Shown here piece by piece: positions 7,614 through 33,241 of a stretch of DNA of 58,926 nt. Under the pieces are notes generated by a model. The model was not told the origin of the DNA and ran no database searches. It was given only the letters and a program-made list of their open reading frames with translations. How positions within the stretch are numbered: the first letter of the stretch is position 1; every line of letters begins with the position of its first letter. Both the position numbers and the translations under genes were made by a program. Source of the stretch: Bacilli bacterium (GTDB lineage Bacteria > Bacillota_I > Bacilli_A > ML615J-28 > CAG-698); contig JAFSVH010000070.1 of NCBI GenBank assembly GCA_017450215.1, positions 1 to 58,926 of the forward strand, given 5' to 3'.

Positions 7614-7642
7614 TAGATTTTTTATTGTTTTTATAATATAAT
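7614..7642 (+). promoter_or_regulatory. Candidate serpin promoter
   Basis: TATAAT at 7637-7642 with a poor -35 (TAGATT, 7614-7619) 17 bases upstream. An overlapping second TATAAT is at 7632-7637. It is the only reasonable candidate before the gene. Confidence 0.4.
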
Positions 7643-7679
7643 GATATTAAGAGATAAGAAAATAAATAGGAGGTTATTT

Positions 7680-9143
7680 ATGATTAAAATTAAGAAGACT
7701 GTTATTTATTTGTTTATATTTTTGTTATTATTTCTATTTCTTACCGGCTGTGAAATAAAAGTAAATATTAATAATGATAATAAAGGAGACATAGAAGAAA
7801 GTAATAATCAAAAAATAAATGATAGAAACGATGAAAGAATTGATGAAAAGATTAATGATGAAACAAATCCTAGTGATTCTGTAGTCATTAGACCTGATGA
7901 AAAAATTACAGATAGTTATGATGATGAATCATTAAATAACGAATTAAGCAAATTAGGTGCAAAACATTTAAATAAAAAATATTTAAATATAACTAGTAAT
8001 AATAATATTTATAATACTGATGAATATAAAAATTATAAAGATAAAGTATTAGATTTTTGTAATAAGATAGGTTCAAAAATTTTATATGATAATTATGATG
8101 GCACTAATATAACATTTTCACCAATATCAGTATTTCTATGTGTTGCCATGTCAACTGGTATTATGAAAGATGAATTAGCACTTAATGAAGTGCTAAATGG
8201 TCTTGGCATAACACTAGAAGAATTAGAATATGTAAAATATATGATTGATCGTTTATGTGCTAGTGGTGATACTCAAATATTGGATGTTGTTAATACATTA
8301 TGGATTAATGATGAAGATTTATTTTATGAAGATACATTAGCAACTTTAGGTAAGAAGTTTTATTGTAATGCATTATATGCTCCATTTAGAACTGAAAATA
8401 TAAAAGCTAATCAAGCTGTTAGAGAATTTGTAAAAGAAAAGACCAGGGGCTTGATTGACCAAGATTTCAAACTTAACAATAAAACTGAATGTGTATTAAT
8501 GAATATATTATATGTAAAAGATTGTTGGAAAAATAATGGAAAACTATCTGGACAACCTGAAACATTCACACGTGATAATGGTGAAACAATTGAAGAAGAA
8601 TTTTTAATTGGTGATTATCAAATTGGTAAAATAGGACGTAGAGATAATTATTCATTTGCAAATATTAGTACAATTAATGGAAGAAAATTAGTATTTGTTC
8701 TTCCTAATGATGGAATAAGTATTACTCAATTATTAAATAAGGAAACATTTGATGATGTAACTAAAAATAAATATAGAGATACTAGTGAAGGACTAAGTAC
8801 TGCAATATACAAAACTAAATGTATCTTCCCTAAATTTACTTCTGATGGTGATGTTGATTTAGCTACTGTTATGGAAGAAGAATTCAATATAAGAAAAATA
8901 TTTAATGCATTTAACAGTGATACAAAAGAATTATATGTATCTAAAATGAAACAAAAAGCTAGACTAGTAGTAGATGAATTTGGATTTGAAGGTGCTGCCG
9001 TAACATATATGGTGTTTGGCGCAACTTCTGTTGGGCCAACTAATATTATTTATGAGACATTTATTGCTAATAAAACATTCTTATATTTTATAATGGATCG
9101 AGATGGTATTGTATTATTTACTGGTATCGTAAATAACATATAA
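7680..9143 (+). CDS. Serpin-family lipoprotein (487 aa)
   Basis: The start chosen is the ATG at 7680, six bases after AGGAGG; an upstream in-frame ATG at 7641 lacks a site. Residues 1-24 are a lipoprotein signal (LTGC, Cys24), followed by an Asn/Asp/Glu-rich linker to about residue 90. The rest is a serpin fold: NITFSPISVFLCVAMSTG, a central VVNTLWIND segment, the hinge region DEFGFEGAAVT near residue 433, and the C-terminal block NKTFLYFIMDRDGIVLFTG. Serpins inhibit serine or cysteine proteases by a suicide mechanism in which the reactive loop inserts into a beta-sheet. The hinge departs from the inhibitory consensus at P14 (Phe for Thr/Ser). Likely exposed on the cell surface, possibly guarding against host or neighbour proteases. 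Single gene with its own terminator. Confidence 0.92.
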   Translation: MIKIKKTVIYLFIFLLLFLFLTGCEIKVNINNDNKGDIEESNNQKINDRNDERIDEKINDETNPSDSVVIRPDEKITDSYDDESLNNELSKLGAKHLNKKYLNITSNNNIYNTDEYKNYKDKVLDFCNKIGSKILYDNYDGTNITFSPISVFLCVAMSTGIMKDELALNEVLNGLGITLEELEYVKYMIDRLCASGDTQILDVVNTLWINDEDLFYEDTLATLGKKFYCNALYAPFRTENIKANQAVREFVKEKTRGLIDQDFKLNNKTECVLMNILYVKDCWKNNGKLSGQPETFTRDNGETIEEEFLIGDYQIGKIGRRDNYSFANISTINGRKLVFVLPNDGISITQLLNKETFDDVTKNKYRDTSEGLSTAIYKTKCIFPKFTSDGDVDLATVMEEEFNIRKIFNAFNSDTKELYVSKMKQKARLVVDEFGFEGAAVTYMVFGATSVGPTNIIYETFIANKTFLYFIMDRDGIVLFTGIVNNI

Positions 9144-28363: not shown

Positions 28364-29141
28364 TTTCATTTCCTTCTTTTTTATCTCTTTCTATTATTTT
28401 TCTAACTGGATCAAAACTCTTCCTATGATATTTACAAATACCATATTTATCAATCATATCTAAATGATATTTAGTAACATAACCTTTATGGTTATCAAAA
28501 CCATATAATGGATAAGTTTCTGCGAGTTTAATCATAAAATTATCTCTTTCAACTTTAGCAACAATGCTGCTTGCAGCAATTGATGCACTTGTTGCATCTC
28601 CCTTGATAATTGATAAAGACTTTTTATCGATATCTAAAACCATACAATCTGTTAAAACAAAATCAACTTCTTTTAATTTCTTTAAACATTCGCACATACC
28701 TTTTCTACTTGCCTCAAGAACATTAATTCTGTCAACTTCTTCAACATCAATATAAGTAATACTGTAAAATAGAGCTTTTTCTTTAATTTCTTTAGCTAAT
28801 TCTTCTCTTCTTTTAGCAGTCAATTTTTTAGAATCATTAAGTCCTTCAATTCTTTCGTTCTTGTCAAGTACAACACTAGCAACAACCAACGGCCCAGCCA
28901 TTGGTCCACGGCCAACTTCATCACATCCTGCAATGTAATTGTAACCTTTAGACCAAAGATATTCTTCTATTTCATAAATATTATTTACTTTGATTCTTCT
29001 ATTTTTCTTCTCATTATATAATTCTTCATCAAAGATTTCTTCAATAGATTTAATATCTTTAGATTTGAAACCTTTAGATTTAATATCTTTAGATTTAACA
29101 TCTTTAGATTTAATATCTTTAGATTTAACATCTTTATTCAT
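28353..29141 (-). CDS. rnhB: Ribonuclease HII
   Basis: 262 residues. The catalytic core starts at residue 70: GCDEVGRGPMAGP with Asp74 and Glu75, then LTDCMVLD and ASIVAKVERD with the remaining acidic residues. It removes RNA from RNA-DNA hybrids, including single ribonucleotides. The N-terminus carries an added tail of six 5-residue units (KDVKS-type, residues 3-32) absent from ordinary RNase HII. The start overlaps the rbgA stop as TAATG, a sign of coupled translation, and lepB-rbgA-rnhB order is common in Bacilli. Confidence 0.96.
   Translation of the reverse strand: MNKDVKSKDIKSKDVKSKDIKSKGFKSKDIKSIEEIFDEELYNEKKNRRIKVNNIYEIEEYLWSKGYNYIAGCDEVGRGPMAGPLVVASVVLDKNERIEGLNDSKKLTAKRREELAKEIKEKALFYSITYIDVEEVDRINVLEASRKGMCECLKKLKEVDFVLTDCMVLDIDKKSLSIIKGDATSASIAASSIVAKVERDNFMIKLAETYPLYGFDNHKGYVTKYHLDMIDKYGICKYHRKSFDPVRKIIERDKKEGNENGQ
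29046..29135. repeat. Six 15-bp tandem units encoding the rnhB N-terminal tail
   Basis: Period-15 repeats around 'atctttagatttaat' on the plus strand, encoding (K-D-I/V-K-S) on the minus strand. One unit differs (KGFKS). Unit length is a multiple of three, so copy-number changes would stay in frame. Confidence 0.9.
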
Positions 29142-29995
29142 TATATTTCACCACTTGGTCTTTCTAATGTGATATGTCCTAATTTCAAATTTCTAAAATC
29201 ATTAAGAATTAAATCATATATTCTTTCATAATCAACAAATTCGCCTTTATAAAAAACCTTATTTTTTGCTATATTTTCTAAGACTGTCAAATTATCATCA
29301 GTCAAAGATACTTCATATCTTTCTTCAAAAAATGATGAATAAGAAGAATTTCTCAGAAAATCAAGAAAATATAAAATCATATCATCACGGCGAATTACAT
29401 TATCTTTTATAGCACCAGTCAAAGCTAAATTATAACCAACTTTTAAGTCTTCAAATTTTGGCCATAATACACCTGGAGTATCTAATAAGTCTAAATCTTT
29501 ATTAATCCTTATCCATTGTTGAGCTTTAGTAACACCTGGAGTATTACCAGTATTAGCCACACTTTTTCCAGCTAATTTATTGATTAGTGTACTTTTCCCA
29601 ACATTAGGAATACCAAGAACCATTGTTCTAATACTTCTAGGCTTTAATCCTTTTGCTTTTTCTTTATCTAATTTTTCTTTTAAGATGTCTTTGCACATCA
29701 CACTAATCTTTTTAATATTTTCACCACTTTTACTATTAACAAAAATACAAGGAATATTATTATTAGCAAAATAATTCTTCCATTCTATATTAATAGCCTC
29801 ATCACTCATATCACTCTTATTCATAATCACAAGTCTAGGCTTGTTTTTTAATTTATCTTTAATCACTGGATTAAAGGAAGAAAGGGGAATTCTTGCATCA
29901 ATCAGTTCTAATATAATATCAACTAATTTAATTTTTTCCTCAATTTCCCTTATGGCTTTTGCCATATGTCCAGGAAACCATTGAACATTTTGCAT
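29141..29995 (-). CDS. rbgA: Ribosome biogenesis GTPase YlqF/RbgA
   Basis: 284 residues with circularly permuted GTPase motifs: G4 NKSD (59-62), G1 GIPNVGKST (128-136), then G3 DTPG (172-175), and the N-terminal WFPGHMAKA that is diagnostic of the family. It is needed for late assembly of the 50S subunit. AAAGGAGGG precedes the ATG. It shares one base with rnhB and follows lepB by 52 bases. Confidence 0.97.
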   Translation of the reverse strand: MQNVQWFPGHMAKAIREIEEKIKLVDIILELIDARIPLSSFNPVIKDKLKNKPRLVIMNKSDMSDEAINIEWKNYFANNNIPCIFVNSKSGENIKKISVMCKDILKEKLDKEKAKGLKPRSIRTMVLGIPNVGKSTLINKLAGKSVANTGNTPGVTKAQQWIRINKDLDLLDTPGVLWPKFEDLKVGYNLALTGAIKDNVIRRDDMILYFLDFLRNSSYSSFFEERYEVSLTDDNLTVLENIAKNKVFYKGEFVDYERIYDLILNDFRNLKLGHITLERPSGEI

Positions 29996-30047: not shown

Positions 30048-31094
30048 TTATTCTAATCTCTCCCAACCAGAAGTTCTACCTTTATAGAAAGTAACAACAC
30101 CACATATTTGTGATTCTTTTACTAACCCAAAATATCTTGAATCATTAGCAACTAATCTATTGTCACCAAGTAATATACAATATCCTTCTGGAATTATATT
30201 ATTGCCTTTATAATCAATTTCTTCTTTATTCGAATTATTATCAATAACCTTATTTAAATCATAATTAACATGATTACTATAACCATATACTACATAATCC
30301 TCATTAAGCATGCAATCATCAATATAAATATGACCATCAATAACTTCAAATTTTTGTCCAGCTTTTGCAATTAATCTTTTTACTAATAATTCATTATCTC
30401 TTACATTTCCTTTGATTTGAATATCATCATCATATTGAAATACTACAACATCACCAATATCATAACTATTTAAGCGAGATGCAATAATCTTATCTCCACT
30501 ATAATCATTCTTTCCACCATATAACAATGGTTCCATACAATCTCCAATTACTGTTGCAGGGAATAGGACGAATGTGAAAAGAAGGGAAACAACAAAAAAT
30601 GATAAATATAGAATTGTTATAATTTCACCAAGGAAATTGAAAATTGAGATTAATTTTCCATTCCTTGATAATTTATATTTCATTGGTTTATATTTATTTA
30701 CATCAATTGGTGTATCAAATGATTTATCAATTGATTTATCACTTGATTTATCATTTGATTTATCATTTGGTATTTGACTTATATATATCTTACTAAAATA
30801 TTCATTATCTTTAGTTCCATTTAATGCTAAAAAGGCAAGGTCTAAATCACTTATTTCTAACATCCTAGTAAAAATAATATTTAAGATGAATATCATCAAA
30901 CCGATAATTATAATTGCATAAAAGATAATCAATCTTGAACCAACTAAGATTCCATCTAGAAAAGTACCAAATGTTTTTAGTATTAAAATACCAATTAAAG
31001 AAATCAAGCCAACAACTAAATTGATAATAAAAGATCTTTTTCTTTTATCTATTCTTTTATCAAGAATCTTATTAATTTGTATATTTGATTCCAT
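30048..31094 (-). CDS. lepB: Signal peptidase I homologue with Cys in the nucleophile position
   Basis: 348 residues, longer than the roughly 180 of most Bacilli enzymes. Two or three N-terminal membrane helices (about 20-78), a soluble insert with a 4-residue repeat (111-126), then a further membrane helix (about 150-178) and the S26 catalytic domain. Motifs: VIGDCMEPLL (the serine of the usual GxSMxP is Cys186, codon TGT), general-base Lys239 in LVKRLIAKAG, and LLGDNR...NDSRYFGLV near 309-324. It removes signal peptides outside the membrane. The Ser-to-Cys change is the notable point; the Lys is kept, so the protein may still be active. Eight bases after the SftA-like gene. Confidence 0.88.
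   Translation of the reverse strand: MESNIQINKILDKRIDKRKRSFIINLVVGLISLIGILILKTFGTFLDGILVGSRLIIFYAIIIIGLMIFILNIIFTRMLEISDLDLAFLALNGTKDNEYFSKIYISQIPNDKSNDKSSDKSIDKSFDTPIDVNKYKPMKYKLSRNGKLISIFNFLGEIITILYLSFFVVSLLFTFVLFPATVIGDCMEPLLYGGKNDYSGDKIIASRLNSYDIGDVVVFQYDDDIQIKGNVRDNELLVKRLIAKAGQKFEVIDGHIYIDDCMLNEDYVVYGYSNHVNYDLNKVIDNNSNKEEIDYKGNNIIPEGYCILLGDNRLVANDSRYFGLVKESQICGVVTFYKGRTSGWERLE
30717..30764. repeat. Four 12-bp tandem units in lepB
   Basis: Encodes DKSN-DKSS-DKSI-DKSF (residues 111-126) in the cytoplasmic insert before the last membrane helix. In-frame, slippage-prone repeat. Confidence 0.85.
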
Positions 31095-31102
31095 TTTATC
31101 AC

Positions 31103-33241
31103 CTATAGTCTTGCCAAAATGTCTTCAAGATCAGCAGGTTCCATTAATACAGTTCTTGCTCTACTTCCTAAATTCTCTGATACAACACCCAATTCACTCA
31201 ATTTCTCAATTATTGCTTGAGCACGATTGAAGCTGCACTTAAATCTTTTTTGAATACTATTAATTGATGCATTTTGAGTTTGCACTACATATCTTGAAAT
31301 TGTAGCAAATAAATCATCACCAGTTACATCATCTTCACTTTCTTCTGTTTTTTGCTTCAAATCATCTTGAGTAAACATAAAATCAAAATTACCACTTCTA
31401 ATAGAATCAGTTATAGCTTTTAGTTCCTCATTAGAAACAAATGAACCCTGGATTCTACATTCTTTTCCTGTATCATCAAAATAAAGCATATCACCATTAC
31501 CAAGCAGTTTTTCTGCTCCAGCATGGTCTAAAATGATATTAGAATCTAATGCAGTTTTAACTTTGAATGAAATTCTTGTTGGTAAATTAGATTTAATAGT
31601 ACCTGAAATAACATCAACTGATGGTCTTTGAGTAGCAATAATCAAGTGAATTCCAGCAGCTCTAGCTTTAGCTGTTAACCGAGATACAATCTCTTCAATT
31701 TCTTTTCCACCAACTAGCATTAAATCAGCAAATTCATCAATAATTAAAACAATATATGGAATATGTTTCATATCAACACTATTTCTTTGTTGTCTCATAT
31801 AATCATCATAATCAGTTAAACCAAGACTAGCAAAGAAATCATATCTAGCTTCCATTTCATCAACTAACCACTTCATTGCACTAATTGCTATCTTTGGTTC
31901 TGTGATGATTGGAGTTGCAAGATGTGGAATATTATTGTATTTAGTGAATTCTACCTTTTTAGGGTCAATCAATATTAATTTTACATCATCTGGATGAGCA
32001 CGATATAAAATTGATGTGATAATAGAATTAATACATACACTCTTACCACTTCGTGTCGTACCACCAATCAAACCATGAGGCATCTTGGTGATATCAAGAT
32101 AAATAGCTTCACCTGTAACATCAGTACCAAGCACAACCTTTAATGGATTCTTATCTTCCATTAATTCTGGTTTTGTTAGCATATCACCTAATAAAATCAT
32201 ATCACGTTTATAATTAGGAACTTCAATACCAATAGTTCTTCTACCAGGAATTGGTACTTGTAATCTTATAGCAACTGCTTCAAGATTACCTTGAAGATTT
32301 TGTTGAATTGAAGGGACTTTTTGATATTTAACACCAGGTTCAAGTTGAACTTCAAATAAAGTAACCGTAGGACCTTTTTGGAAATCAACAACTCTACCAG
32401 CGATATCAAATTCTTTAAGTGTTGAATCAATGATTTCTCTTTGTCTATTAACACCTTCTAAATCGGAAGTAGCATTCGGATTTCTTCTCTTTAATAAACT
32501 TAAAGAAGGGAAATTGTATTTAGTTTTTCTTTGTTTTCTTATTTCGTTATAACGATCATTTTTACTCTTTAATTTCTCTTCAGGATTTGTTTTAGATGTA
32601 ACACTAATTCTTGCTTGAACTTCTTCATCATTATAATATTGATTATTATCAAGATAATTATTATCTTCCTGATAAGTCTCTTCTTGATAATTATCATCAT
32701 CTTTTAAGTTATAATTCTCATCTTCATTATTAAGTTCAGAAAAATAATCTTCCTTAACATTTTCATTATTTTTATATTCTTGATAATTATTATTTTGATA
32801 ATTATTATCATTTCTTTCTTCTTGCTTATAAATCTTAATAGTCTCATGAGATTGTTGTTCATAAGAATTCATTCTATCATCAGCACTCTTTTGAACTTCT
32901 TCATTTGCATCTTTCCCATTAACATCTACTTGTTTAACATCTACTCGTTTATTCTCAGGTTCATAGCCATTAAAATCTTCAAATTTTGGAACACAATAAT
33001 CTTGTATTTCTTCTTTTGATACTTTGCTTCCATTTCTCAAATAATCATATTGTCTTTCACTATATTCTAAATCTGATTTCGGATAATAATTAACATCTTT
33101 TACATTACTACCATAAATAGAAGAAACAAATCTCTCGCTCTTATCTATAATAGGTTTAGGTGTGCCATTTATATCAAGTGGTTCTTCTTTTTTAGTAGTT
33201 TTATCTGTAACTTGTGGAATAACAAACTTTCTTCTTTCCAT
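31103..33241 (-). CDS. Soluble FtsK/SpoIIIE-family DNA translocase (SftA-like)
   Basis: 712 residues. No membrane helix is visible; residues 1-230 are a hydrophilic Asn/Glu/Tyr-rich linker. The motor begins near residue 265 and has Walker A GTTRSGKSVCINSI, LILIDPKKVEF, Walker B VLIIDEFADLM and ATQRPSVDVISGTIK. The C-terminal winged-helix gamma domain (about 645-712, SINSIQKRFKCSFNRAQAII...SRARTVLM) reads polar chromosome motifs. The lack of a membrane anchor matches SftA (YtpT) of Bacillus rather than SpoIIIE/FtsK. It moves chromosome DNA away from the closing septum. AGGAGGG precedes the ATG. First housekeeping gene in the long operon. Confidence 0.9.
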   Translation of the reverse strand: MERRKFVIPQVTDKTTKKEEPLDINGTPKPIIDKSERFVSSIYGSNVKDVNYYPKSDLEYSERQYDYLRNGSKVSKEEIQDYCVPKFEDFNGYEPENKRVDVKQVDVNGKDANEEVQKSADDRMNSYEQQSHETIKIYKQEERNDNNYQNNNYQEYKNNENVKEDYFSELNNEDENYNLKDDDNYQEETYQEDNNYLDNNQYYNDEEVQARISVTSKTNPEEKLKSKNDRYNEIRKQRKTKYNFPSLSLLKRRNPNATSDLEGVNRQREIIDSTLKEFDIAGRVVDFQKGPTVTLFEVQLEPGVKYQKVPSIQQNLQGNLEAVAIRLQVPIPGRRTIGIEVPNYKRDMILLGDMLTKPELMEDKNPLKVVLGTDVTGEAIYLDITKMPHGLIGGTTRSGKSVCINSIITSILYRAHPDDVKLILIDPKKVEFTKYNNIPHLATPIITEPKIAISAMKWLVDEMEARYDFFASLGLTDYDDYMRQQRNSVDMKHIPYIVLIIDEFADLMLVGGKEIEEIVSRLTAKARAAGIHLIIATQRPSVDVISGTIKSNLPTRISFKVKTALDSNIILDHAGAEKLLGNGDMLYFDDTGKECRIQGSFVSNEELKAITDSIRSGNFDFMFTQDDLKQKTEESEDDVTGDDLFATISRYVVQTQNASINSIQKRFKCSFNRAQAIIEKLSELGVVSENLGSRARTVLMEPADLEDILARL

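Follow-up and report, generated by a model that had tools for sequence, protein, structure and literature searches.

Type I signal peptidase is a textbook Ser-Lys peptidase and an antibiotic target. An engineered Ser90Cys form of E. coli LepB, described by Tschantz et al. in 1993, reportedly remains active and is sensitised to thiol reagents, and the box E residues, including Ser278, are said to matter for activity (work ascribed to Klenotic et al., 2000). In S. aureus SpsB the oxyanion hole includes the backbone NH of Ser36 (PMC4704075), while in E. coli Ser278 has been given a role in stabilising Lys145, the general base (PMC4049620), and contacts the ligand (PMC12984324). Two more distant members of the comparison are S. 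pyogenes SipA, which has Asp and Gly for the catalytic Ser and Lys and no peptidase activity (PMC4049620), and lambda CI, which is without the Asn277-Ser278 dipeptide (PMC12984324). We found no description of a natural Cys signal peptidase in the open-access literature, the older subscription papers lying mostly outside this search. Here we examine a lepB gene with a Cys codon at the nucleophile position, located in a 58,926-nt stretch of bacterial DNA (the window).

Identification of the gene and its surroundings

The open reading frame is full-length and intact, from its ATG start to its TAA stop, and its product scores 91.4 bits against TIGR02227, the curated signal peptidase I model (cut-off 47), and 86.6 bits against PF10502 (cut-off 22.9). 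The closest PDB sequence matches are Gram-positive signal peptidases (4me8 and the SpsB entries 4wvg and 4wvh). An AlphaFold2 model, for which an alignment of related sequences served as input, has a mean pLDDT of 71, with the catalytic core mostly scoring above the linker, and in structural comparison it again comes closest to SpsB (top PDB entry 4wvi, S. aureus, E 6.7e-9). A predicted helix at residues 145-175, hydrophobic in sequence, immediately precedes box B and corresponds to a membrane anchor before the catalytic domain. The gene order ftsK-lepB-ylqF-rnhB is the same in the window as in relatives (Table 1). We identify the frame as a genuine type I signal peptidase and as the orthologue of the family's lepB.

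The extra membrane helices reported in the initial annotation lie at the N-terminus and, in the alignment with relatives, are common to the other family members; as a novelty of this protein they were discarded. The repeat insert reported alongside them was confirmed as a tandem repeat, and this DKSx insert lies within the linker ahead of the last membrane helix, outside the catalytic domain. The neighbouring rnhB contains an in-frame 15-bp tandem repeat of its own (29045-29136, minus strand, 6.1 copies), which encodes a KSKDI-type N-terminal extension of RNase HII, and it is possible that the in-frame repeats of these two housekeeping genes are slippage-prone protein tails. Elsewhere in the window, a 138-bp tandem repeat (685-1151, 3.4 copies, 89% match) is found inside a large exported protein encoded on the minus strand from 3929, and the plus-strand gene at 7641-9143 is predicted to encode a lipoprotein that contains a serpin domain (PF00079, 125 bits). 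Serpins are a protease inhibitor family that is unusual in bacteria.

Table 1. Positions in the window of lepB, its active-site codons, its repeat and its conserved neighbours.
Feature	Position	Strand	Evidence
lepB, type I signal peptidase with Cys nucleophile, 348 aa	30048..31094	-	TIGR02227, PF10502, SpsB fold match
Codon TGT, Cys186, nucleophile position (E. coli Ser90)	30537..30539	-	Alignment, codon reading
Codon AAA, Lys239, general base (E. coli Lys145), invariant in alignment	30378..30380	-	Alignment, codon reading
Codon GCT, Ala316 replacing the Ser278 equivalent	30147..30149	-	Alignment; Ser278 role from PMC4049620
12-bp tandem repeat, 5.7 copies, encodes DKSxDKSx linker insert	30702..30769	-	Absent from aligned relatives
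ylqF, conserved neighbour downstream of lepB	29141..29995	-	TIGR03596, 347 bits; same order in relatives
ftsK-type DNA translocase, conserved neighbour upstream of lepB	31103..33241	-	Same order in relatives

Active-site residues

The initial annotation had proposed that Cys replaces the catalytic Ser and that both the general-base Lys and the GDNR...DSR motif are intact. The first two of these statements were borne out, as the nucleophile motif reads VIGDCMEP with Cys186 and the Lys is retained as Lys239. The third was wrong: box E reads GDNRLVANDSR, with Ala316 at the position of E. coli Ser278, and this position is Ser in 28/28 other homologues of alignment A1 and Ala in the window protein only. 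When columns with the same residue in at least 85% of the rows of this alignment (29 proteins) were considered conserved, the window protein departed from them at three sites, namely 186 (Cys for Ser), 245 (Ala for Pro) and 316 (Ala for Ser), with several relatives varying at position 245 as well. Box B carries additional changes, a Leu for Thr94 (E. coli numbering) followed by a 4-aa insertion. Lys239, Arg240, GDNR, Asp318, Ser319, Arg320 and Gly323 are kept, and V182, M187 and V238 align with the S1-pocket residues described for SpsB and LepB. Judged from the aligned sequences, both active-site serines have been replaced in the window protein.

The retention of Lys239 sets the protein apart from two known groups of variants. 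Signal peptidases of the S26B type have a His general base in place of Lys, as seen in two rows of our wider alignment (L038 and L090), and inactive homologues of the SipA kind have lost the catalytic Lys as well as the Ser.

The double replacement also bears on whether the Cys codon could be an artefact of sequencing, assembly or strain mixture, the true residue being Ser. TGT is one base away from the Ser codons TCT and AGT and the genome is a draft of 141 contigs, but a single error accounts for just one of the two active-site changes, the second, independent one having occurred at the other invariant active-site Ser, and box B differs further while the frame remains intact. A base-call error is therefore unlikely, and we consider an artefact of any of these kinds highly improbable. 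While the replacement of the Ser278 equivalent makes a sequencing error less likely, it also makes full activity less certain.

Distribution of the Cys nucleophile and rate of change

Among 28 genomes sampled from the same family, matches were obtained in the window's own and in 23 others; one of these 23 ends before box B, and the nucleophile is Ser in 22/22 of the orthologues with a readable box B. The sole genome of the same genus (L005) has the motif NQSSMEP, with Ser. In a wider alignment of 63 rows, the nucleophile column contains Ser in 58, a gap in 2 and Cys in 3, these last being the window protein, an S24 repressor and one protein from Dependentiae. Searching 395 genomes of the class with a gapped DNA motif for a TGT-type nucleophile identified one in-frame signal peptidase, the window's own; this survey is incomplete, as the motif requires the codon TGT and its spacing fits 32 of 55 related homologues. 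A Cys fixed in the clade, for which the initial annotation had suggested aligning homologues, is thereby ruled out; the substitution is confined to the window species within the genomes sampled. The best reading of this distribution is that the Cys nucleophile arose after the species split from its sister, the only same-genus genome.

We compared the mean identity to relatives of the window's genes with that of the sister's. For lepB the values were 0.304 (window) and 0.353 (sister), compared with 0.545 and 0.536 for ylqF, 0.531 and 0.528 for rnhB, and 0.526 and 0.554 for ftsK, which displays a mild trend. Since identity is lower for lepB and not for ylqF or rnhB, lepB has changed faster in the window lineage, beyond the mild trend of ftsK. 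This faster change fits either active-site adaptation or relaxed constraint and does not decide between them.

On a broader scale, about 85,000 genomes were scanned with a narrow motif, which returned six stretches, corresponding to one signal peptidase, three S24-type repressors and two unrelated ORFs; a slightly stricter Ser form of the motif matched only 4/149 genomes near the window, and the count is to be read as a lower bound and not as a frequency. The signal peptidase is a Candidatus Dependentiae paralogue (L048, 4693-5781, plus strand) with a Cys nucleophile, an intact Lys and an altered N-terminus. As two Ser-type copies stand in tandem in the same genome, its own Ser278 equivalent is kept and the title of its contig gives a coverage of 1.1, the support that it provides is weak. 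The box B motifs of its Dependentiae relatives comprise 24 with Ser, 1 with Cys and 2 false motif picks. The three repressors (L043, L044 and L047) combine an HTH with an S24-type domain and have Cys at the nucleophile (DCMEPTL, DCMAPTL and DCMAPTL, respectively). The motif scan of viral contigs found no Cys signal peptidase, just two short unrelated ORFs.

Copy number and predicted substrates

The genome assembly is 94% complete and 0.35% contaminated. The initial annotation had called for a search for a second lepB. Three family models (PF10502, TIGR02227 and TIGR02228) and a lineage profile detected no further type I signal peptidase in this 94%-complete genome, which supports the absence of a canonical second copy. 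The other S26-like protein is a SPASM-like ORF that ends in a domain of the Ser-His type (IYGSSMSPF ... VVHRI) and has no evident membrane helix, and it passes TIGR02228 (55.6 bits, cut-off 51.85). This ORF (L002, contig C46, 1432-2370, minus strand), whose C-terminal domain is of the S26B type, adjoins a radical-SAM-like ORF (93-1442) and possibly represents a peptide-modifying enzyme fused to its protease. The same genome has two adjacent genes for the lipoprotein signal peptidase LspA (L204 and L205, contig C103:25646-26688, plus strand), alongside many predicted lipoproteins.

A simple signal-peptide scan, covering the window and about 200 kb of the remaining genome, found exported non-lipoproteins whose signal peptides end in VKA, TSA, VQA, VFA, VNA and VKA, all canonical (V/T)xA sites of the AxA type; one further match (L111 12874) is probably a false positive. 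The genome is predicted to provide the kind of substrates that an ordinary type I enzyme would be expected to cleave.

These observations are relevant to the suggestion that the protein is losing or has lost its peptidase activity, as in SipA, the working signal peptidase being encoded in the 6% that the assembly lacks or its task being done by some other enzyme. Such decay would be in keeping with the replacement of both active-site serines, the further changes in box B and the faster evolution of lepB in this lineage, but, in contrast to SipA, the protein retains Lys239 and the remaining box E residues, and the gene sits at the usual locus as the family's lepB orthologue. Inactive signal-peptidase homologues do exist (SipA, PMC4049620) and two genomes of one genus of the family (g3) carry a second lepB-like gene, whereas the other S26-like protein of the window's own genome carries a domain of the Ser-His type and lacks an evident membrane anchor. 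Moreover, Cys is chemically competent as a nucleophile, which is atypical for loss. We regard loss of activity as unlikely.

Alternatively, the enzyme may be active but specialised or redox-gated, with Cys186 acting as a switch, for example through oxidation, or serving a narrowed set of substrates. A thiol in an extracytoplasmic active site can be oxidised, and an indolepyruvate:ferredoxin oxidoreductase (TIGR03336, NF005325) is encoded by nearby genes. Iron-sulfur enzymes of this type are characteristic of anaerobes, in line with the anaerobic lifestyle suggested in the initial annotation. However, no other type I enzyme was found that could serve general secretion, the cleavage sites of the substrates look ordinary, and no partner is evident for Cys186 among the other cysteines of the protein (Cys261, Cys306 and Cys331). 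This makes a dedicated switch or a narrowed specificity decidedly improbable.

Proposed function and significance

We favor, with a probability of roughly 0.7, the reading that the window protein is the organism's housekeeping type I signal peptidase and works with a Cys186-Lys239 dyad. The intact frame, the family scores, the kept box E and S1 residues, the gene order, the status as sole copy, the substrates, the SpsB fold and the activity reported for the engineered Cys90 LepB all argue for it, while the Ala at the Ser278 equivalent, the faster change of lepB, which fits relaxed constraint, and the 94% completeness of the assembly argue against it. The sequence itself shows the Cys, the Ala, the retained Lys and other box E residues, the orthology and the single copy in this assembly; we infer both the catalytic activity of the Cys186-Lys239 enzyme and the functional link between the two changes. 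In the proposed mechanism, Lys239 would deprotonate the Cys186 thiol or form an ion pair with it, and the thiolate would attack the carbonyl of the P1 Ala in Sec signal peptides, the backbone NH of residue 186 sitting in the oxyanion hole. The acyl-enzyme would be a thioester, from which a water activated by Lys239 would free the mature protein. The switch would have taken place in the window lineage after its split from the same-genus genome, together with the change of the Ser278 equivalent to Ala and the changes in box B. Since thiols have greater acidity than hydroxyls, the Lys may get by with less exact support; hypothetically, this could explain the loss of Ser278.

It is probable, if somewhat less so than the dyad itself, that in a single natural lineage an essential, single-copy housekeeping serine peptidase turned into a Cys-Lys enzyme and that the loss of the Ser278 supporting the Lys was coupled to this. 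The nucleophile of signal peptidase I is all but invariant in the homologues compared, and if the only copy found is a natural Cys form, the divide between Ser and Cys can be crossed in the dyad of an essential enzyme. It would also constitute a natural experiment on rebuilding a Ser-Lys dyad around a thiol, and the change of the Ser278 equivalent to Ala provides a concrete hypothesis as to which neighbouring residue must change alongside the nucleophile. Motif-based annotation and inhibitor design presume a serine that is not universal. The enzyme is a variant of a known one, and the change of two active-site residues makes it somewhat more interesting than first noted.

Comparison with known systems

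The S24 (LexA/CI-like) repressors L043, L044 and L047 belong to the same superfamily and share with the window protein a Cys for the nucleophile Ser, but they are DNA-binding repressors and not signal peptidases. S. pyogenes SipA resembles it in having a signal-peptidase fold with a replaced nucleophile, whereas the window protein retains the Lys for which SipA has Gly. The Dependentiae protein L048 likewise combines a natural Cys nucleophile with an intact Lys; however, it keeps Ser278 and its genome has two Ser-type copies, while the window protein is without Ser278 and is the sole copy found. S. aureus SpsB and E. coli LepB (S26A) are like the window protein in fold, membrane anchor, Lys base and GDNR and DSR residues, their S1-pocket positions are matched in it, and (V/T)xA sites occur in the window genome; the differences lie in its Cys for Ser, its Ala for Ser278, and its Leu for the box B Thr with the 4-aa insertion. 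Engineered Ser90Cys LepB has a Cys-Lys dyad in the same fold, but it is a laboratory mutant that keeps Ser278, whereas the window protein is natural and without Ser278.
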